Positions 9,584 through 52,012 of a stretch of 64,000 nucleotides of DNA are shown here, one piece after another. Numbering within the stretch: position 1 is the first letter of the stretch; each line of letters begins with the position of its first letter. The position numbers were made by a program, and so were the translations under genes. The notes below the pieces were generated by a model. That model did no database searches and was not told where the DNA came from. It saw only the letters and a list, made by a program, of their open reading frames with translations. Source of the DNA: Rhyacophila brunnea (Eukaryota; Arthropoda; Insecta; Trichoptera; Rhyacophilidae); contig JAGYXB010000956.1 in NCBI GenBank assembly GCA_022495005.1, positions 124,001 to 188,000 on the forward strand. The letters run 5' to 3'.

Positions 9584-10720
9584 CTTCTTCTTCTTTCACC
9601 CTGTCACGTCCCAACATTGGGGCATAGGGCAAGCACAAGTTGGCGCCACTTCCCTCGGTCCATCGCCAACTCCTGTGCCTCCTGCCATGTCAGACCTGCA
9701 GCACGTAGGTCGCTTTTGTAGCATCGCTGCAGGGTGAGGGAGGGCCGGCCACGGCGACGGAACCCTTGGAGGCTGTGCCACAAGGGTACGAAGTGCCGCA
9801 CTCTTTGGCGGCATCCGGAATACATGTCCCAGCCACGTAATTCGTCTCTTCGTGATAACTTCAATCACCGAAGGCTGTTGTGTCTGCTCACGAACTCGGA
9901 TATTTGTAACGCGGTCGTACCAATGTACCCCTAAGATTCTGCGGAGACATCGATTCTCAAAGCTCAAAAGCCGTGACTCTTGAAGCTTCGTAAGATGCCA
10001 TGTCTCACAGCCATACAGGAGCACAGGTAGCACGCACGCGTTAAACAAACGACATTTGGTCCTCACAGAATACAGCCTTGACCTCCATGCGACTCTAAGT
10101 TGGTTGAACGCAGAGCCCGCCACACCCATGCGGATTCCAAGCTCACTAGAAATACCACCATCATCGGCAACCGTGGCACTCAAGTACTTGAATCTGGACA
10201 CCAGCTCGACGGGCAGACCAGAAACCCGCAGAGGAGTGTCGGCGTCGATGCAAGCAGCACTGCACATGGATTTGGTCTTAGCGGCATTCAGATGAAGACC
10301 CACACGCATCGAGTTCGCGGCTAGCCTGTTTACGGTCACCTCCAACCTCTCGATCGTCGAGTCAAACACGACTGCGTCGTCTGCATACTCCAAGTCGCAC
10401 AGTCTTTCTTCGCATAGATCGCTTGTGTCATCATGATGTAGGCGTATCCCACTGTCGGGGCAAACCGTCTTAAGCATTTTGAAATCCATCATGATGATAA
10501 AAAGAAAGGGCGCAAGTACACATCCTTGCTTGACTCCTGACGTGATTTCAAAGAGGTCAGAGGATGTTCCGGCTGCTCTCACGCGACACTCTGTATTGGT
10601 GTAGAGAGCACTTATCACGGCGACCAGTTTCCGTGGGACACCATATCCTAGCAGAATTTGCCACAGAGATTCACGATGAGGACTGTCAAATGCTTTTTCA
10701 TAGTCCACGAAGCAGCAGGC
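9584..10720 (-). mobile_element. 5'-truncated LINE, RTE-like
   Basis: Flanked by a perfect 12-bp duplication GACATAATAATT (9572-9583, 10721-10732). The 3' end on the minus strand is a (GAA)n tail at 9584-9595, as in microsatellite-tailed LINEs. The 5' part, including the endonuclease, is missing. Confidence 0.85.
9596..10708 (-). pseudogene. LINE reverse transcriptase (partial, mostly open)
   Basis: 370 codons: FDSPHRESLWQILLGYGVP, TSGVKQGCVLAPFLF, catalytic LEYADDAVVF, the thumb FKYLSATVADDGGISSELGI, then LLYGCETW and RRITWLGHVFRMP. This is the RT-to-C-terminal part of an endonuclease/RT LINE (RTE-like; clade uncertain). The final about 50 codons shift frame relative to a second reading (9604-9864) that holds the true tail. 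Confidence 0.85.
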
Positions 10721-11519
10721 GACATAATAATTAACAAAGTAAAATTATTCATGCATCAATATCATTCAAGAATACATTCATTAAACATAAGCCCTGTGTA
10801 TTATCTCCGTGAACCTAACCTCCACAGTTTCTGACGCTTGGCACAAACTTTACGTTTATGGACACGTCCATTGACAGCTCGAAAGATTTAAATGGGGTAG
10901 TTTGAACTGACCTGTGGTGTGTCCACTAACACAGTGCTCCGCAACCTTTTCTCATCCACGGCACACCAATGGTCTTCCCAGAATTCCGCGGCACACCACA
11001 CATACACCAAAACATGGACCCCATATCCTGAAGCGGGATCCTTGGCGGGTTCGCTAAGGTTAAAGACGGTGTAATACTCTGATGTAGCATTTTCCAAATG
11101 GTGTTTGAAGTAAAATTCATAGTGATTTTTTGTATTTATTAATACATCCACTTGAATTATGGTTAATAATTGTCATGTTAAGAATAATTAGTTGTTGAGT
11201 ATTGACATGATAATAAAAAAATGCATCGCATATTCAGATACTATAATATCAGTGTAATAAAATACCGCCGCAGGCGACTTTTTTTTTACTATTTGTGTTC
11301 ATCTCACTTATCTGGTTGACCTACCACGCCGCCTCTCCTAAGCCTGGGGGCCATGCACCAAAATTACATTAATTTTTTTTATTTGATAAATAATTAAATA
11401 CCGCACGAGGAAGAGGAAGAACTAAATGTACATATTTCCATGTATTTGTATTATCAATATAACTAATTAACGTGATACCTGAGCTTGTTTCCATGAACAT
11501 AAAAGTTTTATATATTTTG

Positions 11520-13040: not shown

Positions 13041-13837
13041 TCGTAGTCTGACTTGATACACCGGAGAAATTAAGAATCGAGGATAAGAAGAAAACCAAGC
13101 TGGCGAAGACTTAAAATATTATTCCATCGAAAAAAACTAATTATGTTCTAAAAAAAATATCTGCTGTTAAAAAAAGTTATTAGTTAGTTTCGAATCTTCA
13201 TCAGCAGAGTCATCGGCTGATAATTTTAATTTTAGAATATCAAGTGGGGGATTTTGTAATTTTTCTTTATGAAAGAGAATAATTATGTTCTATGAAAGAT
13301 CCTAGAAATCAGCAAGGATGGGGCAAAGATTAGCTCAATGCAAAAATCGTTAAAGGGTTGGAAATGGTCAGAAAACATCGACTCGATGAATTATCCTTGA
13401 GATGACATAATCCAGAAAATTCTACCACCTGAAAAATGCCAATCTAAATTTACTTAATTCTAAATCTACATTTATCAAGTTAAGGAAATGGCACAAAGTA
13501 TTAGGGTGATAAGGAAGAGATAATTGAGGTTTTATTATTAAAAACGATTCATTTTGTGTTATAATATCTACCTAATTCTAATTAAGATAATTATGGTTTA
13601 TGATTAAGTATAACTGTTATGAAAAAAATGTTCATTTGTTCCATAAAACATATTTGTAAAAAGCTTTTTTTCTTTTATCGTAATAATCAAAACCTGCGAA
13701 TTTAATAAATCTGTGTTTTTATTTAGCATAGGTAACTAAATGTCCCCTTATTACGATTTTTAAATGTGTGTCCAAGGTCAGTGGCGGCCGGTGGTCTTCA
13801 GAATAGCATTTTTTGGTAGTGCGCAATGGTTTACCTT

Positions 13838-14127
13838 CTATACCCAGCATTGGAGCATAGGGCAATCACAAGTTCGCGCCACTTCCCTCGGTCCAACGCC
13901 AACTCTTGCGCCTCCCGCCATGTCAGACCGGCAGCACGTAGGTCGCTTTTGTAGCACCGCTGCAGGGTGAGGGAGGGCCGGCCATGGCAACGGAACCCTT
14001 GAGGCTGTGCCATAAGGGTATGAAGTGTCACACTCTTTGGCGGCATCAGGAACACTTGTCCTAGCCATGTAAAGGTCGTAAAGCGTCTCTTCATGATTAC
14101 CTTAATCACCGAAGACTGCTGTGTCAA
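13838..14127 (-). pseudogene. LINE 3' fragment, same family as 9584-10720
   Basis: Minus-strand reading TWLGQVFLMPPKSVTLHTL and RPSLTLQRCYKSDLRAAGLT is about 85% like the 9.6-9.86 kb tail. It is a dead-on-arrival insertion inside the pogo element. Confidence 0.85.
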
Positions 14128-14255
14128 TAAGCTAAGATAATATCTTAGTGTACAATAATGACTGTAACGTCGAACTTCTCAGAAGGTAAATTAAATATGT
14201 CTTTGTTTATTTATTCTATTTCTTAAAAAAGTTTTTAAACACTTGAATGATTTAA

Positions 14256-15250: not shown

Positions 15251-16535
15251 TTAATATCAATAAAGAAAAATAAATGTCACGGTTTATGGCTTTACGCTGC
15301 GAACAATGAATGCGTCAGCCAAATTGAACCGTTCTAAACACGGATGACGACACTGGGTCACTTTGTCAATAGTGAATAGCAGTATGTTTATTTCTTAAAT
15401 TTCACATTATTAATTTAAGTGAAATTATAAAATAAACTAACATTGCGTGGGTAATATTTATATTGTAAATCAGCGTTCCTTCGAACTCAGATTTATTTCT
15501 GATGTATTTATATGTCATTAAAAGTATTTTTCTCTTATATTATCGTTCTTATTTATTATTCAGCTGTAGTACTGCTGTGTTTTTTTTTATTATATTGAAT
15601 GTATTTGAGTGGTTTAGAAATAAATTCGGCAGTTTGTATTTTCGTAAAAGTTTGGCGATTCATTAAATCTTAAATGTGAAATTGTTAAAAATTAGCTTGC
15701 CAACATTGTTATAAAACAGAAATTGGCGTTTTTGTTTCTAGAGTCCTAATTTCGTGCGCCGATCATAAAGTTTGTAAAAAATGCTACTACAGAAACATAG
15801 GACCACGGTTTAAGAAGTATACAATGACCTCATTGTAATCCTGTGCAAACTGAAAATCTATTTGGATCGCAATCGCTTTGCGCCCATGAACGAAGTATTG
15901 TTCATAATACTGCTACATGTTCTACTTCGCGAAGTGAGTGATACACATATGAATAATAATGAAAAGTTGAGCGATGTCTTCAAAAATGCAGGCGGTGCGT
16001 AGCACTTGCATGGTATTAGAGGAGCCGCCGCTGTCCAAGGTACAACCTTCATATGTTCGAGGTACAACACCACTGTTGTACCTTGGACCTAAATCCACAT
16101 TTTTTATATGGCCTAAAATCACCATAAATATCAAGATAATTAATTTGATACATATATCAAAGCATGCGCAACTGATGCTAAAATCAAACCAACTAAAGTT
16201 GGCAATTTTACCTATAACCAGTAATTTATGAAAAATCTAAAACAGAAAATAGGTCCGAGGTACAACAGTTTCCCCTATTGTATAATATACAAAACTATTT
16301 GCAATTTTTTGTTTGGAAGCACTGCACTAACATACAGTTTTTGTCTGTGGTAAACTCAACCTGGAGGTAAAACTCGCTGTGTATCGCCACCTATTGTGAT
16401 ATTTGTGGAATCATTGAAATTCACACGCTCAACACAAACTGTCAAACGATGTGAGACATTCGCAATAAAATGCATCGGTCTGCGCTAAGCATCATGTATT
16501 TCATCATACCTATCGCTGATTGAAAATAGACACTA

Positions 16536-16997
16536 CAGTAAAACCTCGTTAGCAAGAACACTGATAATTCGAAATTTGCCATAATTCGAAATTTTCCCGA
16601 AAAAAAAGTCCCTTGAACATTATTTTCATATAAAACCATACCTTTAATTCGAAATGATTTCAGAGTCCCTGGCATATAAAAATATTCAATAAATCGTAAT
16701 AAAGTACACTATCTCATAAGCCAGTCATTGAAAATTGTGAGACTTTTCTTAAAACATCAAAAATTACTTATTCGAAGGTAATAAAAATAATCCTGACATT
16801 TTATGACCCAATTAGGTAGGCATATCTCTGATCAGAAACGAAATTAATAAAAATCAAAAAAAAAAAAAATTTAATTTTAATATTTTTCCCCTCGTTGCAT
16901 TGCATTGCATTAATTGCAAACATTGCATATTTCGTAATTCGAATTTTTTTCGATTTTCAGTCCCATAGAATTCGTATTAACGAGGTTTTACTTACTG
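16536..16997. mobile_element. Tigger/pogo-like MITE, complete
   Basis: TA-flanked, ends CAGTAAAACCTCGTTA and reversed CAGTAAGTAAAACCTCGTTA, with the usual ATAATTCGAAATT subterminal words. 462 bp, no coding sequence. Confidence 0.75.
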
Positions 16998-17065
16998 TAC
17001 TTGGAAGAGCAACCTTAATGGTAAAGTTAAAATAAAAAAAATGCAATTTTAAGGGAAAAAAAGTG

Positions 17066-17071
17066 TTTATT
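17066..17071 (-). promoter_or_regulatory. Polyadenylation signal of the snoRNA host gene
   Basis: AATAAA on the minus strand, about 110 nt into the terminal exon, just before a T-rich stretch. A Tigger-like MITE begins about 70 nt further downstream. Confidence 0.55.
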
Positions 17072-17240
17072 TGCCTACACTACTATATTGAAAGTAATAT
17101 GAATATTAGGTTACAGCCAGGTGCGGGCAGCCAATCATTTACAGCAATAACCAAGGGAAGTATCGTGGCATGGTCCATCTGAAAACAGTACACAGGTCAA
17201 CGAGTGGCCCTCCATTTTTCCAAATTTTTGGCATCATTCA

Positions 17241-17311
17241 AACAATCAGCAATATTTTATCAACATGATTTTGTCTGTCGACGAAAAATAACAATTTAAA
17301 CATCATGGAAA
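17241..17311 (-). ncRNA. Box C/D snoRNA, class B copy 4
   Basis: Box C ATGATGT (17300-17306), a TTGATAA C' and D CTGA (17246-17249). The 16-nt 18S complement is at 17280-17295. It lies in the last intron, its D box ending 67 nt before the terminal exon. Confidence 0.8.
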
Positions 17312-18067
17312 ATTTTAATACAACAATAAAAAAAACATTCGTACCATTATATGAGAAAATGTGTATTGGCTGTAGGCTAATTTTTTTTAGGATTGAAAGT
17401 CAAAAAACCTCTTCATAAGAAACCATCATTATAATATTAAGCAATCATATTTTATCAACAGGTTTTTCAGAGGTGAAAAATAGTGAATGATCATTATAAG
17501 ATTTGTTCAAAAACTAAATCAAACGCCTATTCTAAAAACTGTAATTAAATGGTGCAAATTTTACAAGAATTCTAGAATTAAACAAATAATTATTTCATAA
17601 TAAACAATGGAATATACAATAAAAAATACCTCTCATTGTAGCATGCAGCAGCAGGAACAGCTTTTAAGTCCATGTCCACGTCTGCTCCTCGGTCAGAGCA
17701 TGTCGATACGGACACTACATGACACCTCTCTTACATCCTGTCCAGGGCATGTCGACATTTCTTAGCTCCGCCGTATACACCACGTATTTAGCAATCTGGG
17801 ATGTCGTAAACCAGTCAAAAAAAAAGACAGACCGGGTTGACTTTCTTGAGACATCAATCAATAGCATGAGTCCGAGCCAGGTACAAAGGCGGTTCTTCAG
17901 CATAGATGTGATGTTGAACTGGATTGTCTACTCTCTTGATACACTTTCTAAGGTGACATGACATGAAATGCCACCGATGGGGATTTGTTTATCGCTGAAA
18001 ATGAAATCAACGTTCCTCCAATTAATATTGATACAAAAATATTCTATTTGATGTCTTCAAGAAATGC

Positions 18068-18141
18068 ATAAATCAGAAGAATTTTATCAACATTGTCATT
18101 TCTGACGACGAAAAATAACAATTAACATAACATCATCCTAT
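18068..18141 (-). ncRNA. Box C/D snoRNA, class B copy 3
   Basis: Box C ATGATGT (18130-18136), C' TTGATAA (18084-18090), D CTGA (18073-18076). The 16-nt complement to 18S GACGAAAAATAACAAT is at 18107-18122. The D box ends 78 nt upstream of the acceptor at 17994. Confidence 0.8.
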
Positions 18142-18759
18142 GAATAAACGTATTATCCACTAAAAGCAGCCAAGTAGTGAAATAAAAACTATGTTTCACT
18201 TGTTTCATATGTTTGAAACCTACTGCTATTTGAAAATTTAAATACAGGCAGTCCTCGATTTACGACCAAGTCACAATCCACACTTTGCTTTGATAAGCCT
18301 TTATTTTTATATGAGTCAATCAAAAACATTTCAGGGAGAGTTTAGAAATGAAGATATTACACAGTGGGAAGCAGAGGTGTCACGCGCTCTTCAATCCGCG
18401 CCACGATTAAAAGGATGGTTGTGGCCAATTTATTACCCACACCGCAGCCGTGCCGTTTATCCAGTTCCAGTTTTTTTGGATGTGTCGCAGATTAATGGGT
18501 GTGACACACCTTCGCTTCGCATTCTCCTGTGAAATACCCCCACGATGGTGTTTCCACACGCACCAACTGAAAACTGAAGAGAGAAATTATCCCACCTTGA
18601 GATCCGGAAGACTGCGGTCTGCCACTCTGAGACCATTATGAAAATGCACTGCCCCGCCCCGCAAGTGCCAGATTGTTGGAACGGGCCCTGTAACAAATCA
18701 ATGAAATAGTAAGTCCCCAGTTTAGAGATGAAGTGTTTCACTCTATCGATATCACTTCA

Positions 18760-18830
18760 AAAGCTCAGAGGTTTCTTTCTCGTCAAGTTATTGTCAGAGA
18801 CGAAAAATAATTAGGTACACATCAAGGCAG
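18760..18830 (-). ncRNA. Box C/D snoRNA, class C copy 2
   Basis: Box C TTGATGT (18819-18825, weak first base), D' CTGA (18794-18797), C' TTGACGA (18780-18786), D CTGA (18765-18768). The 12-nt complement to 18S GACGAAAAATAA is at 18799-18810. The D box ends 77 nt upstream of the acceptor at 18687. The segment between C' and D is 11 nt and might be a second guide; I could not assign a target. Confidence 0.75.
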
Positions 18831-20084
18831 AAAAAAACTACGTATAATTCAGCATTCATCTTTATATTCAGTCGCCATTAAATTGAAACTGTTTTATGAC
18901 ACAGAAAACTTGAGTGTCAGTCGCTTCAGAGCAGAAGTGGCGTAACCCACAAAAATGTATAAACGGAGTTAACCATTGGAGAGGTTCACTAATATAGTGT
19001 TCTATGAACTAGAAGTGGTTGAACCTCCCTTTTCGTCACGTCACTTCTAGTTTAATTTCATTTCATATTCTTAATCAATTAGTGGTGTGTGTGTGGTTAC
19101 TTCACTTATAATATTATTTGACATTATTTAATGATGTATGAATAATTGGTGGTGGTTCTTTACAATCACAGCTGTAAAAGACCATGCGGACACAGGTCAT
19201 TTATAGAATGTATTCTCTATACCTTGATGCTGACATGTTATGACAAGTTTAGTGTTCAGTTGCAAACAAGCAGGAGTGTGTTCGGACGTGTTCGAGATAT
19301 GTTTATCATTGATTTCATCAACAGGAAATAGGGTAAGGGGATGTATTATCATGATATAGATAATATTGTGATACTTTTTTAAACTGAGATTTTGACGTTA
19401 CCTAGCTTAGTAATGGGTGTGAAATGGCACATACGGCGAGCCAAAAGAGTGAAAGGGACAACTGCGTGTCAGTCTTTTCCAAACCGCCGTCGAGAAGAGG
19501 TAAAAAAAACTTTTCGTTAGCGAAACGGTTAACTAGTATTTGAGTTGGGAACTACATACTCAGTTTTTCATGTAATTATCTTATAATTAATTGGTAAGTT
19601 GTCGTTTTTATATAAAGAAGTAATAGTTACACATTAGCCTTTATATATTGGAGTTATTAACTAAAAATATGAAATTACATTTAACAAAGTTTGTTAAGTT
19701 CGGCGATGAATATTTTAGGTTATTTTTTAATATTTGTGAAATAATTTGACAATATAGATTATATGAAAAACTTCATTTCTACAAACAATCTAATAATGTA
19801 CAGTGACTAATGCGGTGGGCAAAATAGAAACAACAAAATTAACGGAATATGCAATTACATTGTATTACCAATGTTCCCTATAAGGTGTGCGTGCGCGCAC
19901 ACCTACTAAAATGTGTCCGGACACATGTTTTCATCCCCCACACAGGCATCACACAAAAATATTGTAAAAGAAAGTTTCCTTTGCCAGATTTTAGTTTTGC
20001 TCGAATTCACGAAACCATCACATGCACAATTCTTCGACTCATTTCTCGAAAGGCGGAAGGCTGAAATTATGAAATTAATGAATA

Positions 20085-20200
20085 CAGTAGAACCTCGTTA
20101 ATAAGAACACGGATAATTCGAAATTCGCCGTAATTCGAAATTTTCACGAAAAGTCACTTGAACATCATTTTCATATAAAACCAAACCATACATAAGTGTG
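20085..20200 (+). mobile_element. Tigger-like MITE, left end only
   Basis: CAGTAGAACCTCGTTAATAA and following AATTCGAAATT words match the 16.5 kb copy. The right end is missing. It lies in an intron of the snoRNA host gene. Confidence 0.65.
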
Positions 20201-20537
20201 TGTAAAAAAAACCCCATACCTTATCAATAATATACTCGATAAGCATATAATAAATCGTCAAACCTAATAGATCATTAGTAATTATAAACAATAAAAATAG
20301 TACACTCAAGAGGTGTAAAATCGTCCATTCTGGGAACAATGGGAATTAATGGAGTTAACTAATGAGATATATCTAGCGGAGTCTAAGCCATCAGTTGCCA
20401 TCAAACTAAAATTTCTCACCTTCGTTGAGATTTGAAATGCTCTCGGACAGATAGGACTACTGAAACAAAATCACACAATAAAAATTTAGACGGGTTGGTC
20501 AATTGAATCACCACGTCGACGCCGATTACATTCATAT

Positions 20538-20574
20538 TTTGATCAGCTGTTTTTCATCAAGGTCATCATAACAA
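20538..20574 (-). ncRNA. Deleted class A snoRNA copy 3 (guide lost)
   Basis: Box C ATGATGA (20563-20569), a C'-like TTGATGA and D CTGA (20543-20546) remain, but the D' box and the whole antisense element are missing. Box C is joined almost directly to C'. Its exon (20420-20459) is also shortened. The spacing to the acceptor, 83 nt, is kept. Not expected to make a functional guide. Confidence 0.65.
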
Positions 20575-21376
20575 TGTATAAAATATCATTACTTCAAAAT
20601 AAATGGTGTAGTACATAGTATGAATAGTGCTAGAGCTCGGTGTTAGCCCCGGCCGCCTTTAACATCTTTCCTTGTTATGGAATAAAACAGACAAACCAGA
20701 GTCTGGAATTCCTTTTTTACACCGTCCAGTCGTAGGAATCGTGATCTAATGGAGCGTCGTCATCCCTCTGACTTTGTCAATGCCACACGATTCAGTGCTG
20801 ACCTATTTATTGTTCATTAGCATTTATTTATTGGCTGTCTCGTTTATTGTTAGTGATCCAAGTTCACGATGGCGCCGCCATACTACATCTCCAGTTTAGC
20901 CTGAGGATTTTTCTGAATACCATGTGTTCAAAGCGTTCAAAGGGGGCATAAGGCAACATCAAGAATAAATAATTGATGAAATTTACATCACTCAGATTGT
21001 TCCTTTATAATTTTACCGAGGTTTTGACTACAACCCGCTGCCATATCGCCGCTTCTCCTCCAAGTGAGGATCCGTTGTGAAAGCCCCCTACTCTTCGCAC
21101 CTCAAATTTTGGATATTTGCGTGCAAATGTCCAGTCAGCTAAATTTGTAAATATATTCCGTTTGGTGTTTTTTACTCATAATAATGATGGAAGATAAATC
21201 AGTCAATCACCTGATACCGATACCAGTCGAGAGTGGGGTGGGGTGAAAGATTGCAGTGGTGCGTTTCCTAACTGTTTTCGTCATCGGCACCGTTGGCCGC
21301 CTGCCTGAAAATTTAAAACAGCGCTTCTTAAATAAGCTATATGACAGTGAAAACATAATTATAGGTTGATTTGGGT

Positions 21377-21452
21377 ATAGATCAGTAAAATTCATCAACA
21401 TAGCATTTTCTGACGACGAAAAATAACAATTAATATCATAGCATCATGTTCA
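21377..21452 (-). ncRNA. Box C/D snoRNA, class B copy 2
   Basis: Box C ATGATGC (21441-21447), C' TTGATGA (21392-21398), D CTGA (21382-21385). It has a 16-nt perfect complement to 18S GACGAAAAATAACAAT (21415-21430). The D box ends 77 nt upstream of the acceptor at 21304. Confidence 0.8.
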
Positions 21453-22087
21453 GTAGACCTACTTCAATAATTGAGGTGGCGGGGATTAAACCATTAAAAT
21501 TGAATTAAATTATAAAATGAGTAGAGTAGAGTAGAGCAGTTTTCACATACCTACCATGTGTACCATGCATACAGCAACAGGAGTTATAAGCTTTTTAGAC
21601 CAAAAAGTGGATTCCAAATATAAAATGATTTTTTTTTCTCAACATCGTATTTTATTTGAACGTTTTTGGACTGACCAGTCCTCATTAAACACTAATAACA
21701 TTAAAAATAACAAATAATTTTTAATAGTAACAGATCATTAGGATCAGTAAGAGAAAAAGATGTCATTTACAAAATGTTGCAGTTTACAATATTGCATGTG
21801 TAAATGCACGTAATATCTAACTTTGAACTCGATATGTACCACCATTATTACCAAGTCTTGTGTTTCATAGTTCAGTTACACCTCAATTATTTTGTGCCTC
21901 GGAAAATTAAATTCTCGACTTCTACCAGTCATTGTTAAAATGTAATCTGTCTCACCTTTGCCGAGAAAGATCTGCAGGTCTCTTTGTAATGCGCCCCCGG
22001 GTAAATGGAACGACTGAAACAAATCACACTCAGAATTAGACAGGTTGGTCAGTCAGAAGGCAACGTCAGTATTGGTTTGATTGACAT

Positions 22088-22151
22088 TTTGATCAGCTGT
22101 TTGTTCTCAACATGGTTTTCAGAGACGAAAAATATAAGGTCATCATAATAA
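22088..22151 (-). ncRNA. Box C/D snoRNA, class A copy 2
   Basis: Box C ATGATGA (22140-22146), D' CTGA (22119-22122), C' TGTTGAG (22106-22112), D CTGA (22093-22096). The spacing is identical to copy 1. The 11-nt complement to 18S GACGAAAAATA is at 22124-22134. The D box ends 79 nt before the acceptor at 22013. Confidence 0.82.
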
Positions 22152-22254
22152 GCTTAAAAGTTAGGTGTCGCCATTGAAGTATATATCGACTATGCATTGC
22201 AAAAAAACATATTTGGCATATTGTTTTTTTGACCCCATTGGTCCCCCAGATGGT

Positions 22255-22405
22255 AAACGCCCACGATGGCAGAGGGGCTTATAGTGTCGTGGGTTCCAGG
22301 TTCGAATGCTGGGTCTGGCATATACACATATTGTTTTTCAATCTGTGTTGAGTCAGAGTATGGACCTGGAGGCCCAAATGATCTTCCAAGGATCGGACAT
22401 GGTAA
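22255..22405 (+). repeat. tRNA-derived SINE copy
   Basis: A tRNA-like head with box B GGTTCGAATGC, then TGGGTCTGGCA and the CATATTGTTTTTCAATCTG body shared with the 63.7 kb copy, ending GGATCGGACATGG. Confidence 0.75.
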
Positions 22406-22596
22406 AAAAAAAATTATAATATACCTAGAAAAAATCTATACTTACAAATATTTCAAAACATTATTTAAATTAAACGAATCAAGTTTATAAATTTTCCAAC
22501 ATAGTTGCATATCAGTGGACAGTGGACCTTAGTGTTGTGTTCCTGTTAAATCAAATCTGTCTTCCAACGGGTTACCTTTTCCTTTTGGGAGAAATG

Positions 22597-22730
22597 GGTT
22601 AATCCCTTGCTCAACCAATTAGATCAGCGCTCAGCCCACACACATCGGAAAACAGCATGCAAATTTGCAAAACGCGGAATCAAACTCGTGACTTTAAAAG
22701 CGGCCATTTTACCATTCGTTCATCACAGGC
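22597..22730 (-). repeat. tRNA-derived SINE copy, diverged
   Basis: TTGCTCAACCAATTAGAT and the tRNA-like head are recognisable on the minus strand, with many substitutions. Confidence 0.5.
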
Positions 22731-23045
22731 ATTTGTCCGTATATGTCGTAATTTAAATAATCAGTTGAAAAAATTCGTAGATTTTGATTTCAAATGATTT
22801 CATAATTAAAACGGAGAAATGAATTTCTGTTTATTTATTTGTCGGGACACAATATGGCAGCTGTGTTGCACTCACCAAAAAGAAGAAAACCATGTCCCAC
22901 AATTCAGGAAACGGTTCATGTAGCCTGTAGGCCTAGCTGATTGTACATGCTGCTGCATTGTTGAAATAGACCCTGCGACAAATCAATGAAAGATTAAGCA
23001 CGATAACAGATGTGGAAAATGTCACACTGTTACAGATGTCACTTG

Positions 23046-23163
23046 AAAGCTAAGAGATTTCCTTCTCTTCAAGTCTTTTCTATTCCTTGTAGGATCAGGA
23101 TTAGGATTGAACATGCTAATTTACCTTCCTTTCAGGTATGAAAGATAATTATACATCATGGCA
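23046..23163 (-). ncRNA. Decayed box C/D snoRNA, class C copy 1
   Basis: Box C ATGATGT (23153-23159) and D' CTGA (23132-23135) survive. The guide has drifted (ATTATCTTTCATAC), a short TC-rich insertion lies behind it, and the terminal D box reads CTTA. The position, 78 nt upstream of the class C exon, is unchanged, so this is a relic that keeps its intron context. Confidence 0.55.
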
Positions 23164-23559
23164 AATAAACCCACTATTTTAATTACAGGGCCGTGCAATT
23201 GGGCATTCATGCCAATCATGATAGCATAACTGAAATCTGTTGGCAGAGTACTCGCAGGATCATCAGCAAGATCCGCAAGTCATCTCAGGCGAAGACAGGA
23301 AAAACATGAAATTAAATTTACATCATTTAGATTCATCAGTTGGCTAACATTGAAGTGGATTCAATCTTTACACTATTCACATGAGACAAGTATTAATTGG
23401 GTGCAATCACCTGTGGTATCAATTGCAAGCGGCGTGAAAAGTTGCAGTCTGTCGTATTTTTCAAATTTTTAGTCACTGACGAATGCCAACCTGTAACTTA
23501 AAACAGTGCTTCAGAAATAATGTGTTCGATATATAGTAACATTAGTTAAAGTTCGATTT

Positions 23560-23635
23560 TGAAATCAGTAAAATTCATCAACATGGTCTTTTCTGACGAC
23601 GAAAAATAACAAATAATATCAAAACATCATGTTCG
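23560..23635 (-). ncRNA. Box C/D snoRNA, class B copy 1
   Basis: Box C ATGATGT (23624-23630), C' TTGATGA (23575-23581), D CTGA (23565-23568). D' is degenerate (TCAG). The antisense element at 23598-23612 complements GACGAAAAATAACAA of 18S rRNA, 15 nt. The D box ends 74 nt upstream of the acceptor at 23490. Confidence 0.8.
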
Positions 23636-23849
23636 TTAAGTTCACATAATTATTCAGTGCCGTGGAGGATTTCTTTACTGACTTATAACAGGGGCTATTA
23701 AAATATAATTCTCACCTTTGTCAAGGAAGATTTCCAGGCTTCTCCGTGGTGCCCTCGGACGGAGGGGATGTCTGAAACAAAATCAAACAATCGGAATTAG
23801 ACGGATCGGTCAATTAGAATGGCACGTCGGCGCCGATTATATTCATGTT

Positions 23850-23913
23850 TTTGATCAGCTGTTTTTCCTCAACATGTCTTTCAGAGACGAAAAATATATG
23901 GTCATCATAACAA
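23850..23913 (-). ncRNA. Box C/D snoRNA, class A copy 1
   Basis: Minus strand: box C ATGATGA (23902-23908), D' CTGA (23881-23884), C' TGTTGAG (23868-23874), D CTGA (23855-23858). A TTTG/CAAA pair can close the ends. The nucleotides before D' complement GACGAAAAATA of 18S rRNA (11 nt, 23886-23896). The D box ends 83 nt upstream of the acceptor at 23771. Confidence 0.82.
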
Positions 23914-25488
23914 ATCCAAAATAAAATGGTCAGTCATTTTGGGATATTTACAATAATATAATATTTATGATTGCTATTGTGAGCTTTGTAAAGATCGCAC
24001 TTGTTGCATCACCTCAGTACTCCTCCTACTCCGTCTTGTTTCGTATCCAAATTATCTAACGTTACTGGTTATGTGGTACACTTATGAGAACAATCAGTAT
24101 ATGCTCAGAAGATCAGTCCTATGTGACATTTCTTTTTCCAAGGGGAAAACGCGGCTATAAACCGGAGCTCTCAGTTCCCAATGAATATGACGAAATATAC
24201 ATCAAAATCAGCACCGCCTTGCGCTACAAAGAACTTTCCAGGATTTTTGCAAGGTGGTTTCATAGCCCCTATCTGCCAGTCTTTAAAACAACCTCAATAG
24301 TAAATACGAGGTATCCCTAAAGGCATCTAGAAAAAAATATCCGTTACTGGACTGTAATTGACATACAAAAATAAATTATATTTGCTACATTAATTATACA
24401 TGCCGCACTGTCAAGAGCTGCCAAGAAAATGAGAGGCAAAATACACGCTGAAATAATGATATGTCTGGGATCATGCATTACCACTTAAGCCACATCAGCA
24501 AAGAAATTAGTATGTACATAGAATAATTACATTTCATATTATACAAAACCCAGGGCCATATTGATTTATAGGTTGGTATGCTGGGATTCATAAGAGGTAG
24601 CCGGTGACAGGAAAATATTGAGAAAGGTCTTCAGGTCATGTCTCAATATGATTGGAGTCTACTTGGTAAAAATTGACAATGTATCAATAAAATATTTGTG
24701 TCTGATGCGCAATGACAATTTAAACACCGCTTACCTTAACAAGTTGGAAGTCCTCTGTTAAAATCAGATTGGCCATCATAATTCTCCTTCCATCCATTGC
24801 ATGTTTTTCCACCGTAAATCTATTTCAGAGTCCAATCAGTAAAGTGAAATTCTGTTTTAATGAATAGGTACTTCTAGTTGTGGACATCTGTGAACGTGGT
24901 AAAGAATATGTGAACAGTTTTATAAAAACAATATTACAGAACCGATCAGTTGCAATCACTTAAAAATATGTATACTCACTGAATACTGAATGTCATCAAA
25001 AGAAATGAGAGGAACAGCCCTTTTTTACTGCTATGGCGACAATTCTCATCAATTCATCAAGAGTGGAGATTTCATATAATTGTTTTCTGGTTTCATTCCA
25101 GTTACCGAAGGTCGGAAGATATCTGTTTTCACTTCTCGGTGCGATATCTTGTATCCGTTATGTTCTGGATGCTGTCTTTCATAGTTTAATCTGTCAATAG
25201 CATGTAGAAAATCCAATCGAGAACGGCAATTGGAGAAAATACCATGCCAAACTCTATGAATGACAACGAACTGGCAAAGAGTGCCTAGCAACCCAATAGG
25301 ACGCAAGAAGTATACCAAAGGCTCGCTGAGCTACCGATGAGCGTCGTATACTCGGTGTATTGAGCCCAATGACATTATTAATGGACAATGCACTCAATAC
25401 AGTATCTAGCAAGTAAATTCGCGCATAGCGACATTCGCACATGTATAGGTAGACGTCACGCAATTCCCATTATGCGATATCACGCATC

Positions 25489-28810: not shown

Positions 28811-29097
28811 TCACTGGTTCCTGTGGTGCGTTTGGTGCGGCTGGGGAGGTTGCACGGTGTCGTGGCGGCGGTAGAGCAGGAGGTAGGGGGTACGAGGTGG
28901 GCGGGGGCGCAGTACTTGCTGCTCTGTGACCGCGGAGACGAGCGAGTCGTCGTAGCGCAGCCAGCCGGCGCTGGGCGCATGGTAGGCATCAGCCGAGTAG
29001 TGCCCTTTCTCTGCTTCCGCTCCCTCATGGTACACCACTGCAAACAGCTTGTACGACCTCTGCTTTGGCCCATACTTCATCTTTGATGAGATTATCT
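28811..29097 (-). CDS. USP10: USP10 coding exon 9 (catalytic His/Asp, stop)
   Basis: Acceptor GTCTGACAG|AG. It encodes YKLFAVVYHEGAEAEKGHYS with His1054, WLRYDD at 1067-1072, and PYLLLYRR near the end, then a short tail and TGA at 28811-28813. Confidence 0.93.
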
Positions 29098-32000
29098 CTG
29101 TCAGACAGAAAAAAACTTTTTCATCTATGTGTTCACTTTCTGATTCTATTCCGGGTCAAGTTGAAAGTATATCAACCTATCCAAAAGAAATGACTATTTT
29201 TTAAATTCAAATAAATAATACACATGATTTTAGAATGTACCGCTTTTTAATTGCATTTACCAATTTTCAAGATTTACTAAAGAATGCCACATTCTTGCAT
29301 GGTAATCATTAGGGAGCCGATTTATATGCAACAAAAAACATGATTATATGCATGCACATACATAATTATGTTAATTGTATAAAAAAATCGTATGTAAAAA
29401 AGGTACGTTTTTGAGGTTGTTCAGCAATATGAAACTGTCAGAAGCGGTCGCACATGAGGAGATTTGTCAATACGCATTAAGCATTGTGAAAGAGGCAAAG
29501 GTCGGAAACTCACTCGGGTCGATCTTGAGGTCGATAGGGTAGTCGATGGCCTTGACGATCTTGACGGTGGCGCCGTCCTGGGGGCGGCAATGGAAGCACT
29601 TGAGATGCAGGAGAAGCACCTGCGGCAGTTTCTCCAGTTGCCACTGCTGCCAGGCTTCTACGGTTCGACCTCGCGCTCCGCACACCACACCCTCCACGCG
29701 GTCACGCCCTGCTACGCGTTCCAACGCCTCCCGTACAGAATTCGAGCGCTGTAATCGGAGACGATAGACATTTCTTTTTTTCACTGTTCAAGATGAAAGT
29801 CAACTGTTTACATTTTGAAACGTCAACGTGCCGATTTCGGAATATATATTTTGTTATTGATATATATATATATATAATGAGAAGTACTTCTAAAACAGAT
29901 CGTGGGAATTCCAGAGATATAATTCTAAAAGTATAGTAGTTCTCCGATGACGAAAAATCACAAAAAGCATTGATAATATTCAATGACAGGGTGGTCGCCA
30001 TGACACATTGTCAGTATTACCAAGTTCTCAAGTAATTTCTTGTTTTTTAGTTTTGTTTAAAAAGATATGATATAAAATATTAATAATGTTGGATAGCAAT
30101 ATAAAATAATATATAAGTACCTATTATTTCTGTGTGCAAACTAAACAGACCTATAAAGTAAATTAGTAAATTATCAATTGAACTTACATTTTCAAGGTCG
30201 AATTCCATAATAAGAACTCTACAGAATTATCGTTATGTATGTATATATATATTATATAACATGTAATAAAAATAAAACTTTACGGAATACACTATAACTT
30301 ACCCTAAGGGGCTCGTAAACGAGTAACTTTTGACGGCAATTTGGTACGGCAATTGTGTTACTATTAAAAGTTCCGCAAAATACGAAAATAGTAGTCCACG
30401 TTGCCGAAACTTTCCATCTATAGCCTTTGCTTTTTGGCAGCATGGTTGGTCGATACATCGAATTCAATCGAAAATACGGCAATAATTGCTAGATAAATCT
30501 ATTTCATTCTCGCTCTGCTCCATATGTGCGTCTCTGTTTGACCTCACCCCTAGCAACAATAAATACATTTGTGACAGCCGATTCGACAATATATTGTTAT
30601 AATTTTTCGCCGTGTCGTTATTAATATTATTATGGTGTTATTATTAATCGTCAGGGTATTGGAGCTTATGAATGTGGTTTATTTACGTCCGGAGCTATGG
30701 AACACCGAATCCAAACTATAATGATACTAATATGAAAAGGCCAACAACAAAGTTGCACAAACGTCAAATTTTGAGTTTTTAAATACATAATTATCAATAA
30801 CTAATTTCTGGTTTATATTACTTATTGTTTCACATTTGTTTAACCTTTTCGTCGCGCCAATGGTCGCCCCAATGTATATCATTTGTCAGCCGCGTGATTT
30901 TTACGAATCATAAATCATATCATAACTCGTTAAAAACTGTCATTAAAAATCCGAGAAGCAGTAGAACCGATAAATATACATTCCTAATAATTTTACGACA
31001 TCTAAAAATAAACAAATACGACTTAAATGGGGCGATATAGCTTGAACAAACACGTCCCATAGTAAAAAAAACCATGCATAGGTACATACCAGGCGGCCAC
31101 TGTCGTACTTCAAGTGGCATGGACACTTGCGCCGATGACAAGTTTATTAGGGCACGCACGATACGTGGGAACCCCACTTCAAACACAGAACACATTAATA
31201 TTTTACAGAGCACATAAAAAATATTACGAAATCACTTTATTTATTATTGAGGGGTTATTTCAAAACACTTAACATAAAATTTTATCGGACAAGAATTTAA
31301 AATTTAATAGTTTCATGGTAATCGTAAAAACAGGGCTGAGGGCACAAAGCTACATCACATTCTCGACACATAATATTTGTCATTTTTCTTTTTGTATTTT
31401 TAATGGTAGATTGGGAACATACCCGACACCGCCTAAATGCTTTGACTTTTTTCTCAGTTGGGGGAACTTGACGTGGCAAATGTTTTAAAAGTTCGGTTTT
31501 TAACATTCTTTTTGGATTATTACTGGAAGAAGGTATATTTAATGATGTTGAAGGTTTTGAGGCACTACCATATTTTTCTATTAATTGACGAATTACTTTA
31601 ATCTGAAAATCGGCCAAAGAAGTTTTTTTACCGGTTATGACTGTGTAAATAATACTAGCATTTAATAAAAATAAATCAATGATGTGGAAACCAACTTTTT
31701 TGTACCACTTAATTGTTTTTCGCATGCACGACAGACTACTCAACATCATGTCAACTTTATCGACAGAGCCCATGTTTTTGTTGTAATCAACAACGCACTT
31801 CGGTTTTATAATGGGTAGTCCTGTGGCTCTATTGGTTTTATGTGTGGGCACCATTGAGTCGTCGTGCATGGTAGTTATCATGTGTACCTCCCTTTTGTCA
31901 TGCCATTTCAACACAAGCAAAGGGTGTCGGTTTAAAGATTTTATTTCACCCTTTTTTAATTTTTGAATTTTCGGCATTTGCTTCCGATTGCTGCGAACTG

Positions 32001-35000
32001 TCCCGCACGCATTTGTTTTTTGTTTAAACAAATGTTCAAATAATTCTGGGCTGCTGTACCAATTGTCGCAAAAAAGTTTATGGCCTTTGCCAAAATAATC
32101 CCTCATCAATGTGGTCACAACAGCCCCAGACACACCCAACTTTTCACTATCGGTAATTTCAGTTCCGTCGCCACAATAAATTATAAAATCTAAAATATAT
32201 CCAGTTTCAACATCACAAATAACAAATAACTTAATCCCAAACCTATGTCTTTTTGAAGGTATAAACTGCTTAAATATAAGTCGTCCTTTAAATACTATAA
32301 TACTTTCATCTATACAGAGGTTTTCATTCGGCAACATCGAGTCTTTGAACAAATTTCTGCAGTGGTCGAGAAGTGTTCTAATTTTGTAAAGTCTATCACC
32401 GGCAGGGGTTTCACTGTCAGAGTAGTGAAGCATTTGCAAAATTAGCTCATAACGATCTCTGACCATTGTTTGGCTAAAAATTTTTGCATTTAACAAAGGG
32501 TCGGTACTCCAGTGTTCCTCTATTGTAAGACGGCGGTTTCTCGTCATCAATAGGGTAACAGCGTAAAATATGTACAATTCGCTTATGGAAGTATCATACC
32601 AGTTATGAATTCGGGCGTTAGGTGTGTGGACTTGTGTGTTGGTCAGATGATCGTGATAGCCGTTGGTAAAGTTCACTATTTTACCCATTATATCTTCATT
32701 TAAAAAGTGTGTGAAAAACTCCATTTCACTTGAATTCTCATTCAAGCCTACACTTGGATTAACACCAGTGTTAAAACTGTCAAAGTCATACACAATTGGC
32801 ACAAATGGTCCCGCGGTCCACGGTTGACGTGGAGCCTCTGGTGCTTCATGTCCAGAGGTGGAAGTGGAAACCTCTGGTGCTTCATGTCCAGAGGTGGAAG
32901 TGGAAGCCTCTCCCACATTATGGTCAACATCAGAAGGGTCGTCAATATTGTGTGGTTCTGCCAGCCCTGTTTCTCCTTCATCATCAGTTTCCATTTCATA
33001 ATCGGAATCCAAGTATTCAATGGATTCTTGGGCTTCCTCATCGGATACACTATCACGCGCAGACATTTTGATCGCAATGTACAAAAATTAACTTTAAATA
33101 TTTCACTACACAATGTACCTACACGAACTTATTGTCACTATTACAAATGTATATAAAAATATATATGAAGAATCTGTGAACTCGAAATTATATTATTGAA
33201 ATTTAAAATACTACTTTTACACACATTTTCCACTAATTTCAATGGGTAAAATGTATGAAATCTCCAATATTATGATTAAAATAATTACACTTAATCACAG
33301 AATCGCGTATTCAAAGTAATTTTATAAAAGCCGAAACTGAATGGTATCGATAACCGTACGAAACCAGACACACACTGTTGAAATAGTATCACCGCACTAT
33401 TCCAAACAAAGCCGAAGTCGGAAATGACATCACGCGCCTGCGCATATTGCGCAACCAACTAGCGGAGATATTTGAATCGACAAAACTGATTATTTGTATT
33501 TTGAAGGAAGTCGATATGGGTCGAGTCTTTGCTATATTACGAACTATTTCATAATGTTTGGATGACAAAAATCAACAGATGTCAGTAGAATAATAATGAA
33601 GCAAGTTCGTAAAACAAATTTCGTCTCTGTTGCTTACCAAATAACGAAAATACAGCAGTAGAAACTTACTGTCACCTCTAGGCGACGCTCGCGGCTCACA
33701 TATACGGCGATCACCGGCATCTCTACATGACGCGCGCGAGGAATAGGTTAAAAGTAGGACCCGATCCAAATCCTTCTTTCATTTTGGATTAATTTGTTTA
33801 GGTATGTGATTATTTTTTATATGGTGCAGAAACTTCATTGCTGGCCGTTGTTGTCACGTGTACGCACAAAATACATCAGCCTCACTTGCCCGACAATGAT
33901 GACGGGTCATACATTGCCCAGCAACTGGGCAATAGTTGCATCATTTTTCTGCAATTTTTGATACTTATTCGAATACTTTAATTCGAATTACGAAATTCGA
34001 ATTAAAGGTATGGTTTTATATGAAAATAATGTTCAAGGGACTTTTTTTTTGCGAAAATTTCGAATTACGGCGAATTTCGAATTATCCGTGTTCTTTTTAA
34101 CGAGGTTTTACTGTATTGACTAAATGAGTAAAGATCTCTATAACTCGTGTCTGATTATTCGTCTTTTTATGAGATTTCTTGTTCTTTGCTCGTAAAAGGT
34201 GCGGGCGGTTTACCTGTATGTCGAGGGGCAGGGTGAAGAACGGCTGCACACAGTGGGTGGTGTCGGAAGCGGAAGCGTCGGTCGCCCTCTGCAGGCGGCT
34301 GCGCAGCTCACCCTGGAAGATATCGCTGAGCGGCGTGCGGCCCGCCAAGCAGCGTCTCTCCATCGCCCCCCGTTTCTTGGGCCCCATCACCTGTAATCAC
34401 CGGCCGCACGTGTCACCTCACTGATCTATATTCGCTTCTATCTGATTATTCCATTCGCCGTTGTCTCCCGGCCTCAGATCTACTATCGAGCCCACACTGC
34501 GTGTTCGGTTTCAAAGTATTTATCATCATTGTGCCGGGATATCCGCCAAAGCTGTACATCCAACATGCAGTATAATATTTCCATTGTGGAGGATCCATTG
34601 CGGAAAGATATATTAAAAAATGAAATTAAACCGCCCGAGCGGAAACTTCAGTGAATTACAATAAATAACATGGTTTGGAGACACTTTCGCATAGCAAAGC
34701 AAACATCTAATCAATAAAACAAAATATAAATATTTTTTCTTGAAAGTTTGATATTTCTGTGAATAGTAGTAAACCAATGTTCACAAATTATTGTCAATCT
34801 AATCATATTAACACTTTGTGTTGAAATCAATTTATAGACATAAGCAATAATCGGATGTTTTTTAACAGCTACATACCATGTAGAGGTAAATCGTTTTACA
34901 GTGGCACCATGGGTACGGCAAATGCGGCGTGCAGTTGTAGTGCTATTGTTTGCTAGCATTGAAACAGGCATTGTCGCAAGCAATTCAATACACGCGTGAA

Positions 35001-38000
35001 TCGCCTATGGTGCCACTGTAGAATGATTTACCTATACCTAATTGTAATATAACACAACCGATTCGCTTTTTCTACTTAGAAATTAAGTACCTGCTGAATA
35101 AATTATCACAATATGGTGGCAGTTGGCACTTAACTATTTACTATTGCTAACTAACTTTAATTGTGTCAATTTATGTAGTACAATAAGCAGTAAATATATT
35201 AGCCATAGATGAAAGTAAAATCCAATGTCCTCAGTGCAAACATGGTCAATTCCAAATTCGACATTTATTGTTTCAGGGCTATATTCAATTGTCTATTGTA
35301 TTTTCATATAATTTTATTTTGTGGTGTTATTTATTGTTACCTACATAAAGACAAAAATATCTTTACCAGACAATTTATTTTATTGTTGAATTATACACAA
35401 AGTGTGTATATGTGCTACGCATAATATATACTACTCATATGTACTCATATTGCAAGACGTCGCTTGTTGATAAAGATCAAATTAATATTTCTTAAAAATT
35501 TTTGCATGTCTTGCAAAACATTTGAAGACAAACTTACTCGTTACCTACATAGTACATTGTTCTTTGGGTATCACACGACATTACAATATGAAGTAATGAA
35601 GCATGGTATTTAGCACCGATTTCAATTTGTTATCAGATAGTTTCGTATTAACCAAGTTTACAAAGTACAATAGGTGCTTGAAGATGCAGAAAGGCCAAAT
35701 GCGGATCACTAAAAACTCTTCCAATGTAAATTTAGATGAATTAGAATTTTTTACATTATATTTCCTAGGGTCTACTACTAGCATTCGTCTATCAGGTAAA
35801 ATTGGCATTGAAATATGCATGCTTTTAATTATTATCGGAAGACGATCACAATTTTTCGGAAGATGTGCTTAATAAAAAGAGAGAATAAAAGTCACCTTCC
35901 AGTCGTCTTCATCCTGAGGCGGGTCACGGGTGTCAGGTGTGGCCGTGCCGTTGGCGAAGGGGGCCGCCTCCTTTGACTCCTCGGGCTTGAAGAACTTGAT
36001 TACCTGCCGGCAGTCATTCGTTGCCATTGAAATAGAGCAATTGCAAATAAGAAAATTAGCACGAGAAATAAAACTTTTTGTTTTGTTCTCCATTTCCAGA
36101 CACTTAATCAGTCGTAGTAAATCTAGTATTACTCATATTGTACTTATGTAGTTAAATAAATATTTTTCTTTTGTACTAGTTGCTGATGAGAAAGGATTTG
36201 TTTTTTAAAAATAGTTTGTGAAAGTGTCAATATTATCATTAAAAACTGCAATGAATCGTAAATGAGTGAATAAGGGAAGGGTACTAGTGATTCTACTTAC
36301 TACTACATGGAGAAAACAAAAGAAATCAGATGGGGGCTTAAGAAGATTTTCTTAATAAGCCGTTCAACCACTGATTATCTTGGGGGGGGTTTGACATTTC
36401 ATGCATACGCCTCTTACACATTCAAATGACTGTACCTATACGGCAGGGAAGCGGATATAAGAGGATAGGGGAGGTCACCTCAAGCATCTCGTCGTTGAGT
36501 CCGTTGAGAAGGCAGCCGAGGAATTCCTCGGCATCCTCTTGGCGGCCGTCCACGCGGAAACTGTCGCCGCCACGCTGTACATCGCGCAGAGCTCGTAGGA
36601 CTGCGGCCGCATCTAAGGGGGGCCCGGCTCCCACCAGGGGTGTGCCCTGTTGCGGGACACGATCTCCCGTCGCATCAGCCGGTGCAGCTGCCGCCGCTCG
36701 AGAATTTCGTTCAGCACGCGTCACTCGCGCGCCCGCCGCCATCGGGGTGAACTTATGGCATAAATCCACCCTGAAATGAAATGTCTATCAATAACTATGA
36801 TCATGGACCCGCATCCTGAAGGGGGGCCCGGGCTAGGATGTACGGTGGCCCCCTCCCCTATGGGTATCCATGTATTTTAGTGATTTATTATATTATTAAA
36901 TAAATCCACTTGAATTATGTCGGCACTCAGCATCATATTATGAAATGCTGATCACGAATCCCTTTTGTGGTGCATGCGCAATGCGCACAAGTAACATGCG
37001 ATCATAGAGGTATTAAATAAAAAGAGGGGCAAAAAATCGGCTTTCTCTATTCTCTCAGCCATTATTGACTATTGGACGTGCCATATTAGTGAACACCGGA
37101 TTACCTAGCGCGCCTACTGTATATGTAGAAAAGAGTAAACTTCTTTCAGAAATACAACCATAGCTCGCGGGCTCTACAGAAATACTTGGCGGGCCGTAGT
37201 TTGCCCAGGCCTGGTATAGAGTATAGACAACAAACATTAGTCTGCAGCAATTTATTGTTTTCACGCATTTAATTGCAATAATTGTAATGACACAATTATG
37301 AAAACAAGTTGAAAAGTTGATGCTGGCATTCGAATGAATATTTACCCAGTAGAATGATCTCTTCAACAATCTTTGTTTAATCATAAGTTACTGTTAATTA
37401 AAATGTGTTACGTTTCGTTATGTTACCTACACAGTGCAGTGCGGTGGTTATATAAATTGATGTCTTAAGGAATGACTGACTGTTAGCCATTCGCCCGAAC
37501 TATCGGTATGGATAATAGTGAATGAACATCTGGGATCAGCGAGCAATTTTCCAAATGCTTCCTAAAGATGGGACCTCATTTGGAAAACATTTATGTAGTA
37601 TTTATGAAAGTTTTAGTTATGAATATGACTCCATCATCATTTCTATACAACCAGATCTGTAGTCTGGCCAGTGGGGCGTGTTGATCGAGTAAAGTCGGAC
37701 AATATGGAAGGTGTATATAAAGGGTGCGAGACTGACATGGCATCGATGACTGGTGTGCTGGAGCGGTCGCGCTTGGTGGCGAAGGGCATGTTGAGCATAT
37801 TGTAAAAGGGCGGGCAGGCAATGAGCGCCTGCAGTGTGGCATTTGCGTAGCAGTAGTTAGAGCGGTTGGACATTCCTCGTGGCAGTAGCCACACACTCTG
37901 GTGCTCCAGCCGGTGCGCTGACAGCAGCCCTGTAATCAAACCGTTCAATATCAACAGACCTGTAATATTCCTCTCACCCCTCCTCTCACCGGTCCAATAA

Positions 38001-51835: not shown

Positions 51836-52012
51836 AGGTGGAATACAGGATAACCTTCCTACGGTCTTTAGGGTGATTAATAAATATAAAAAAATCCTGT
51901 CTAATCCCAAGCCAACAATGAGGGTTCCTGGACATCACGAAGGCCACACAACAACAAGCGGAGGTTTCTGTCGCCGGAGAAGTGTGTAGCACTCCATCAC
52001 CATCTGCTAACG

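Follow-up and report, generated by a model that had tools for sequence, protein, structure and literature searches.

A predicted non-coding host gene in Rhyacophila brunnea with an array of intronic box C/D snoRNA candidates for one 18S rRNA segment

In the 64-kb window (the whole stretch of Rhyacophila brunnea DNA that was analysed), the minus strand at 17,045-25,015, downstream of USP10, appears to be a host gene for intronic snoRNAs that has expanded in tandem. We read it in this way because a similar spacing to the splice acceptor was found in seven of the eight units scored and because three pairs of exons are paralogous. The locus is very probably a UHG/gas5-like non-coding snoRNA host gene, running from ~25.0 to 17.05 kb, whose introns hold guide snoRNAs for the C517 segment of 18S rRNA. 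Seven elements were found that measure 54-66 nt from C box to D box and sort into types A (n=4), B (n=2) and C (n=1), and three relics stand beside them. The order of units along the array is B-A-c-B-A-b-C-A-b-A, where lower case marks relics. An earlier sequence-only reading had described seven minus-strand elements with C, C' and D boxes and 11-16 nt of complementarity to 18S rRNA, and our analysis bore all of this out. In the protein search for USP10, scoring was confined to the 7,986 candidates with most words in common; the best of the 55 matches listed had 35% identity, and all 36 matches bearing a species name belong to genera that we take to be Lepidoptera.

The four type A elements, with C517 as predicted target, are A1 (23565..23630, 66 nt, C box start 23630), A2 (21382..21447, 66 nt, C box start 21447), A3 (18073..18137, 65 nt, C box start 18137, or 18136 by the full C/D descriptor) and A4 (17246..17306, 61 nt, C box start 17306). 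The predicted target is G518 for B1 (23855..23908, 54 nt, C box start 23908), B2 (22093..22146, 54 nt, C box start 22146) and C2 (18765..18825, 61 nt, C box start 18825). All lie on the minus strand. In each of the seven, C, D', C' and D boxes surround an invariant 11-nt word, TATTTTTCGTC, and the C box core TGATG, a C' box and the D box CTGA are all present. The D' box is CTGA in B1, B2 and C2 (3/7) and CAGA, one nucleotide off CTGA, in the four type A elements, and the full C box heptamer RUGAUGA occurs only in B1 and B2 (2/7); both observations count against the array reading. Where a terminal stem would lie, outside the C and D boxes, the flanks of all seven pair no better than random ones (31% to 87% of random flanks equal them), and this too counts against it.

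The word TATTTTTCGTC occurs seven times in the 7,971-nt region, whereas 1,000 dinucleotide shuffles gave a mean of 0.005 and a maximum of 1. The full C/D descriptor, which was composed after the elements had been seen, occurred seven times in the array region and in none of 1,000 shuffles, with no further occurrence on either strand of the window. A narrower descriptor found five of the seven, missing A1 and A2, and produced two overlapping off-target matches at 32930-32987, within a piggyBac frame. When a sequence-only model was made from these elements, it recovered all seven by construction (E 4e-13 to 4e-18), and its further window matches include 29935-29964 (E 0.034), where the word stands without boxes, and one at chance level (E 1.9). 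Since this box-less word (at 29957) pairs with 18S rRNA over 11 nt, the same length as B1 and B2, what distinguishes type B is its boxes rather than the length of its duplex. Identity between elements was 52-89% over 21 pairs, compared to 42-51% for upstream flanks and 43-63% for downstream flanks, where only A1/A2 and B1/B2 exceeded 60%. The guide word is unchanged in 7/7 while the upstream flanks are at background.

Two of the relics had been noted before and were confirmed. The B4 relic (17448..17497) has its guide mutated from CGTC to CACC, and where its D box should lie there is no CTGA; it is more A4-like in its 3' half, and the model matched it at E 0.0019. The B3 relic (20543..20570) retains the C box, a C'-like part and the D box, the guide and D' being deleted, and it was absent from the matches of the model search. 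We found a third, the C1 relic at ~23020..23080, which has lost its guide and can be aligned to the C'-to-D part of C2. By alignment, the intron end beside it (22957-22998) is likewise similar to its C2 counterpart. All three are on the minus strand. A C/D-like stretch at ~23263-23327 was set aside, its nearest acceptor being ~33 nt away by eye.

Contiguous Watson-Crick duplexes with 18S rRNA measure 15 nt in A1, 16 nt in A2, A3 and A4, 11 nt in B1 and B2, and 12 nt in C2, and they span about 513-530. The target sequences were a contaminant eukaryotic 18S half and human 18S, both of which may differ from the 18S of Rhyacophila brunnea. In genome contigs, the 18S segment matched this contaminant half alone, within a bacterial MAG record. 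We take GTGACGAAAAATAAC to begin at G513 in human numbering, a register that fits 22 of the 22 methylation sites considered, compared with at most 11/22 for eight other offsets. Because GTGACGAAAAATAAC starts there, the segment that the guides are predicted to cover is human C517/G518, the SNORD56 site. The sequence-only reading had placed the site near Am484 and SNORD16, which has to be corrected: the word covers C517, and A484 lies 33 nt upstream.

Published accounts assign SNORD56 to C517 and SNORD16 to A484, and the 16-nt guide word of A2-A4 is part of a published antisense primer for human 18S (PMC5612246). The same source describes a 9-nt 18S stretch from T514 within SNORD16 itself, that is in sense orientation, with which nt 29-19 of SNORD56 pair (PMC5612246). 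C517 is tabulated as methylated in human, as is its equivalent C473 in the plants listed (PMC11542601), and no Drosophila equivalent is named in the available part of PMC13228274. The antisense of C/D guides is described as 10-21 nt (PMC4300560), and the duplexes of the array fall within this range. Of 200 shuffled elements, 3 for B1 and 1 for B2 found an equally good duplex somewhere in the 18S half. A slightly longer duplex with G-U pairs allowed, at 903-916 of the 18S half (B1, B2 and C2), was ruled out, since it includes the D' box.

The fifth-nucleotide rule is presented as strict (PMC8522698). Counted by eye, it puts type A on C517 in 4/4 elements if D' is CAGA, and types B and C in 0/3, these falling instead on G518. 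The D' CTGA of types B and C lies one nucleotide nearer the guide than the D' of type A. One host gene, many guides and one rRNA site had been proposed before; the intronic C/D elements, one probable non-coding host and one 18S segment held, but a single target nucleotide did not, as the D' spacing of A and B/C differs by one. This shift is the part of the array worth testing. A rather unlikely possibility, in our view, is that types B and C have shifted their target from C517 to G518. One gene would then guide two adjacent nucleotides, and the C517/G518 methylation balance could depend on how much A RNA is made relative to B/C RNA. Since A and B/C pair with one rRNA stretch, they would compete. 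If true, this would mean tunable ribosome heterogeneity encoded within a single gene. Among the five best-ranked of 928 papers in the literature on 18S rRNA and snoRNA, ranked so that any also containing Gm518 would lead, none mentions Gm518.

The predicted exons all lie on the minus strand. The first (24980..25012, its start presumptive) has a pyrimidine-rich, TOP-like start, CCTCTCATTTCTTTTG, and ends before GTGAGT; the sequence past its donor resembles that past the B3-relic exon (75% over 28 nt). We saw no snoRNA in intron 1. The weakest exon call is a predicted 20-nt micro-exon 2 at 24735..24754, called by splice-site consensus only. Predicted exons then follow downstream of B1 (23716..23771, 56 nt, similar to the B2 and B3-relic exons), A1 (23411..23490, 80 nt, similar to the A2 exon) and the C1 relic (22876..22972). 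Those downstream of B2 (21956..22013, 58 nt), A2 (21211..21304, 94 nt) and the B3 relic (20420..20459, 40 nt) were placed by predicted acceptor and exon similarity, and that of C2 (18596..18687, 92 nt) by predicted acceptor. The exon downstream of A3 (17735..17994) has a predicted acceptor and an uncertain donor 260 nt further. The last predicted intron contains the B4 relic and A4 together, and the predicted last exon (17053..17178) has AATAAA close to its end.

Most C/D snoRNAs are described as having a conserved position relative to the acceptor downstream of them, the optimum being ~50 nt upstream of the branch point (PMC8162545). In the array, the search for an acceptor AG covered only the range 40-120 nt past the D box in eight units; the best acceptor lies 83 nt from the D box in B1, 79 in B2, 77 in A2, 83 in the B3 relic, 77 in C2, 78 in A3 and 67 in A4. 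For A1 the automatic scorer picked a weak site at 89 nt, and the A2-homologous acceptor gives 74 nt. Taken by themselves, the acceptors have modest scores, equalled by 1.7% to 36% of random positions, which counts against the array reading. Paralogous exons were found for B1/B2, B1/B3 relic and A1/A2, none of 1,000 shuffles reaching each score; that only 3 of the 36 pairs tested were similar was also counted against it. With lengths of 56, 58 and 40 nt, the B exons do not preserve a reading frame. Joining the exons, E10 excepted, yields a 113-codon frame, which counts against the array reading, and only the exon lengths argue against coding.

We propose that the array grew via duplication of snoRNA-intron-exon units, leaving most introns with one box C/D snoRNA or relic. 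The seven intact snoRNAs would be single-guide RNAs, the D' guide pairing over 11-16 nt with the conserved 18S segment GUGACGAAAAAUAACAAU. After transcription, intron splicing and trimming would release them, and the C/D RNPs they assemble into would methylate 18S rRNA. Type A would act at the equivalent of human C517, the function of SNORD56, and types B and C, under the strict rule, at the adjoining G518.

At the gathering score, Rfam gave no match in the 64-kb window. Relaxed searches gave weak C/D matches only (SNORD18 at 22 bits, snR61, Afu_328), taken as generic C/D likeness. SNORD56 (RF00275) scored 11.7 bits on A3 against a gathering score of 36, its guide not aligned, and was not among the matches for A1, B1 and B2 at E up to 10; A2, A4 and C2 were covered by wider searches only. 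In viral contigs, neither the type A guide with its D' nor the 18S segment had a match. The target segment of SNORD56 (U56) is that of the array, as is the nucleotide for type A, and the C'-to-D part of its Rfam consensus (UGUUGAuA..UCUGA) resembles A3. Human SNORD56 is located in NOP56; unlike it, the array comprises seven copies in a predicted non-coding host gene.

A same-target array had been called unusual. This was overstated, as same-target C/D paralogues in one host are common in vertebrates, whose multi-copy families likewise place copies for one site in several introns of one host. Human arrays of the SNORD115/116 type are larger but orphan. In chicken, HBII-99 is reported from introns 1-4 of one host and the U58 paralogues target U3682 and G3683, two adjacent nucleotides as in our array; the largest family in that chicken table has five copies in two hosts, compared with seven intact copies here (PMC2653536). 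Hosts of the gas5/UHG type are, like the array gene, non-coding with intronic snoRNAs, and the start of the array gene is TOP-like. The gas5 gene is reportedly a TOP gene. Drosophila Uhg4 is described as a non-coding host with seven intronic snoRNAs; those named in the available text are Psi28S-2949 and Or-aca5, whereas the array snoRNAs share one target segment (PMC9710044). Among titles and abstract beginnings, we recognised no earlier report of this array. The kind of gene is fairly ordinary, and the one-nucleotide shift between guide groups is its curious part.

Two variants of the host-gene reading concern what the copies do. All seven may guide C517, the D' of B/C tolerating the one-nucleotide shift, so that the array provides pure dosage for one site. 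We give this somewhat less than an even chance: the segment is common to all seven and C517 is methylated in human, with its plant equivalent C473, whereas the fifth-nucleotide rule is strict and B and C possess a consensus D' box, which makes their register less ambiguous. It is also conceivable, and slightly more doubtful, that only some copies work, type A methylating C517 and B/C drifting towards relics as redundancy decays. Three relics within the same array and the short B and C duplexes (11-12 nt, matched by the box-less word at 29957) fit such decay; however, element identity between B1 and B2 is 82%, and a perfect CTGA D', the C' box and the 11-nt core are kept over upstream flanks at background.

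Two further readings fare far worse. Mobile snoRNA-derived retroposons inserted singly are very improbable. Retroposition of snoRNAs is known, tied mainly to H/ACA RNAs in the available account (PMC8178906), but here all copies share one strand, the B-A order recurs, the acceptor spacing is retained and some exons are co-duplicated, and the model finds just one box-less word match outside the array in the window. Least probable is a chance AT-rich similarity or simple DNA repeat without RNA function: the word is T-rich and Rfam gives no match, but none of 1,000 shuffles reproduced the array, Tandem Repeats Finder reports no array at the locus, and boxes and guide persist while flanks diverge.

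The tandemly expanded host gene, as we read it, would show a same-target C/D array expanding together with its exons, with boxes and guide being kept while introns erode. It also suggests that guide and boxes can lead to an insect snoRNA host gene for which Rfam gives no match. The array may offer a natural example, open to testing, of a guide register shifted by one nucleotide inside one gene.

Sequence reading, together with word and repeat searches, revealed seven minus-strand elements within 17,045-25,015, each with a C box first, then the guide, the D' and C' boxes, and finally a D box. In transcription order, these were B1 (23908-23855), A1 (23630-23565), B2 (22146-22093), A2 (21447-21382), C2 (18825-18765), A3 (18137-18073), and A4 (17306-17246), the letters denoting element types. 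The TGATG core was present in all seven C boxes, and the full heptamer RUGAUGA in B1 and B2 only. The duplex was 15-16 nt in type A (D' box CAGA), 11 nt in type B, and 12 nt in C2 (D' box CTGA in both). The sequence-only reading had described seven elements with boxes and 11-16 nt of 18S complementarity, and they were found as stated. Pairing of the flanks outside C and D was equalled at random positions for all seven. No Rfam match reached the gathering score in the whole window, and SNORD56 scored only 11.7 bits, on A3. By eye, a further C/D-like stretch with another guide lies at 23263-23327 (minus strand), in the same intron as the C1 relic, with an unfit acceptor spacing.

Of nine occurrences of TTTTTCGTC in the window, seven belong to the elements. 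The other two are a boxless copy in the USP10 region (29957, minus strand) and a plus-strand copy at 43223. TATTTTTCGTC was seen seven times in the region, against a mean of 0.005 and a maximum of 1 in 1,000 dinucleotide shuffles. Dinucleotide-shuffling the array region 1,000 times never produced the full descriptor (C box, guide, D', C', and D); as this descriptor was composed after the elements were seen, this measures improbability under random sequence and is no blind prediction. An earlier, narrower descriptor caught five of the seven elements (0 in 60 shuffles), missing A1 and A2 because their C-to-D' distance is longer; it also gave two overlapping extra matches inside a piggyBac frame. 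When up to three mismatches were allowed, the window contained 8 copies of the 16-nt word, where 2.18 were expected and none of 100 shuffles had more than 6. From its sequence, we consider the array very probably a C/D guide array.

The proposal of a site near A484, guided by SNORD16, was not borne out. GTGACGAAAAATAAC starts at human 18S position 513, a register that fits 22/22 methylation sites of human 18S (at most 11/22 at any one of eight other offsets). The guides therefore cover C517 and G518. According to parts of PMC5612246, C517 methylation is mediated by SNORD56 and A484 is guided by SNORD16, which itself also contains nine 18S nucleotides from T514; this stretch may explain the mix-up. 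A primer containing the 16-nt guide word is placed at 524-544 by a legend there, but our own count and that paper's T514 both put its sequence at about 510-530. Methylation is known at C517 in human and, in the plants tabled, at the equivalent C473 (PMC11542601, in part). Against one eukaryotic 18S half, the longest Watson-Crick duplex was at the C517 segment for all seven elements. Equal length was reached by 0/200 shuffled elements for A1-A4 and C2, 3/200 for B1, and 1/200 for B2. When G-U was allowed, B1, B2, and C2 paired slightly better at 903-916 of this half, in a duplex that includes the D' box.

By the fifth-nucleotide rule (PMC8522698, in part), the predicted target is C517 for type A and G518 for types B and C, because the D' box of these two types is closer to the guide by one nucleotide. 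The type A register is less certain in principle because CAGA is off consensus; nevertheless, it yields the known site. Entries for adjacent nucleotides under chicken U58 are a precedent for the pair (part of PMC2653536). No report of G518 methylation in any insect was found in the literature searched.

Acceptors were searched 40-120 nt past the D box, and the best lay at 67-83 nt in 7/8 scored, including the B3 relic. For A1, the site picked by the scorer, at 89 nt, was poor; the homologue of the A2 acceptor is at 74 nt. Individual scores did not stand out, a fraction of 0.017 to 0.36 of random positions doing equally well. Support for these predicted acceptors comes from constant spacing and homology, and the paralogues are not independent. 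Such spacing is typical of C/D snoRNAs located in introns (PMC8162545, in part). The predicted gene is bounded by a TOP-like start at 25012 and AATAAA near 17070. The B exons (56, 58, and 40 nt) keep no frame, and joining the exons, with predicted exon E10 omitted, gave a frame of at most 113 codons. We take the predicted host gene to be non-coding. It lies downstream of the USP10-like gene on the same strand, and its transcription could start from its own promoter or be an extension of USP10.

The USP10-like gene (28814-39933, minus strand) has its C-terminal frame, with a UCH domain match, at 28814-29155; of the three frames tested besides the N-terminal one, two had UCH-domain matches. Its proline-rich N-terminal frame (37951-39933, minus strand; GC 62% at 38-40 kb) had 55 protein matches, the best at 35% identity among candidates scored. 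All 36 species-named matches belong to genera that we take to be Lepidoptera. Between the USP10 frames lies a 596-aa piggyBac-type transposase frame (31297-33087, minus strand; DDE_Tnp_1_7, E 1.5e-84; zf-Tnp_2), whose closest relative has 79% identity over 81%. The minus-strand frames 9596-10744 and 13831-14178 include a reverse-transcriptase fragment (RVT_1, E 5.4e-15), and the second resembles, by eye, the end of this fragment. A long tandem array at 5135-6870 (unit about 110-124 nt) is partly open in one plus-strand frame. Long plus-strand frames surround a 233-nt tandem repeat at 52009-52651 (2.8 copies, 94%); two tested there had no Pfam match.

Along the gene, the units run B1, A1, C1 relic, B2, A2, B3 relic, C2, A3, B4 relic, A4. 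Downstream exons were alike in B1/B2, B1/B3 relic, and A1/A2 (each score was reached by 0 of 1,000 shuffles); none of the remaining 33/36 pairs was below 21 of 1,000. Intron ends of the C1 relic and C2 were also alike (repeat pair D13). Together, these similarities make duplication of intron and exon units the most likely mode of growth. Over 21 pairs, identity was 52-89% for elements, 42-51% for upstream flanks, and 43-63% for downstream flanks. That introns are worn and elements are not argues for constraint on the elements, which would have been kept while introns eroded. An 83-nt plus 39-nt repeat (D6, D14) has two copies about 3.5 kb apart (16521-16642 and 20070-20187), one within the array's longest predicted intron; it looks interspersed.

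A same-target array had been called unusual, but C/D families usually have copies for the same target within a single host, as do 59.5% of human families with at least two expressed members (PMC8178906, in part). The kind of array is therefore already known; what is notable in this one is its copy number, its visible decay, and the predicted shift between C517 and G518.
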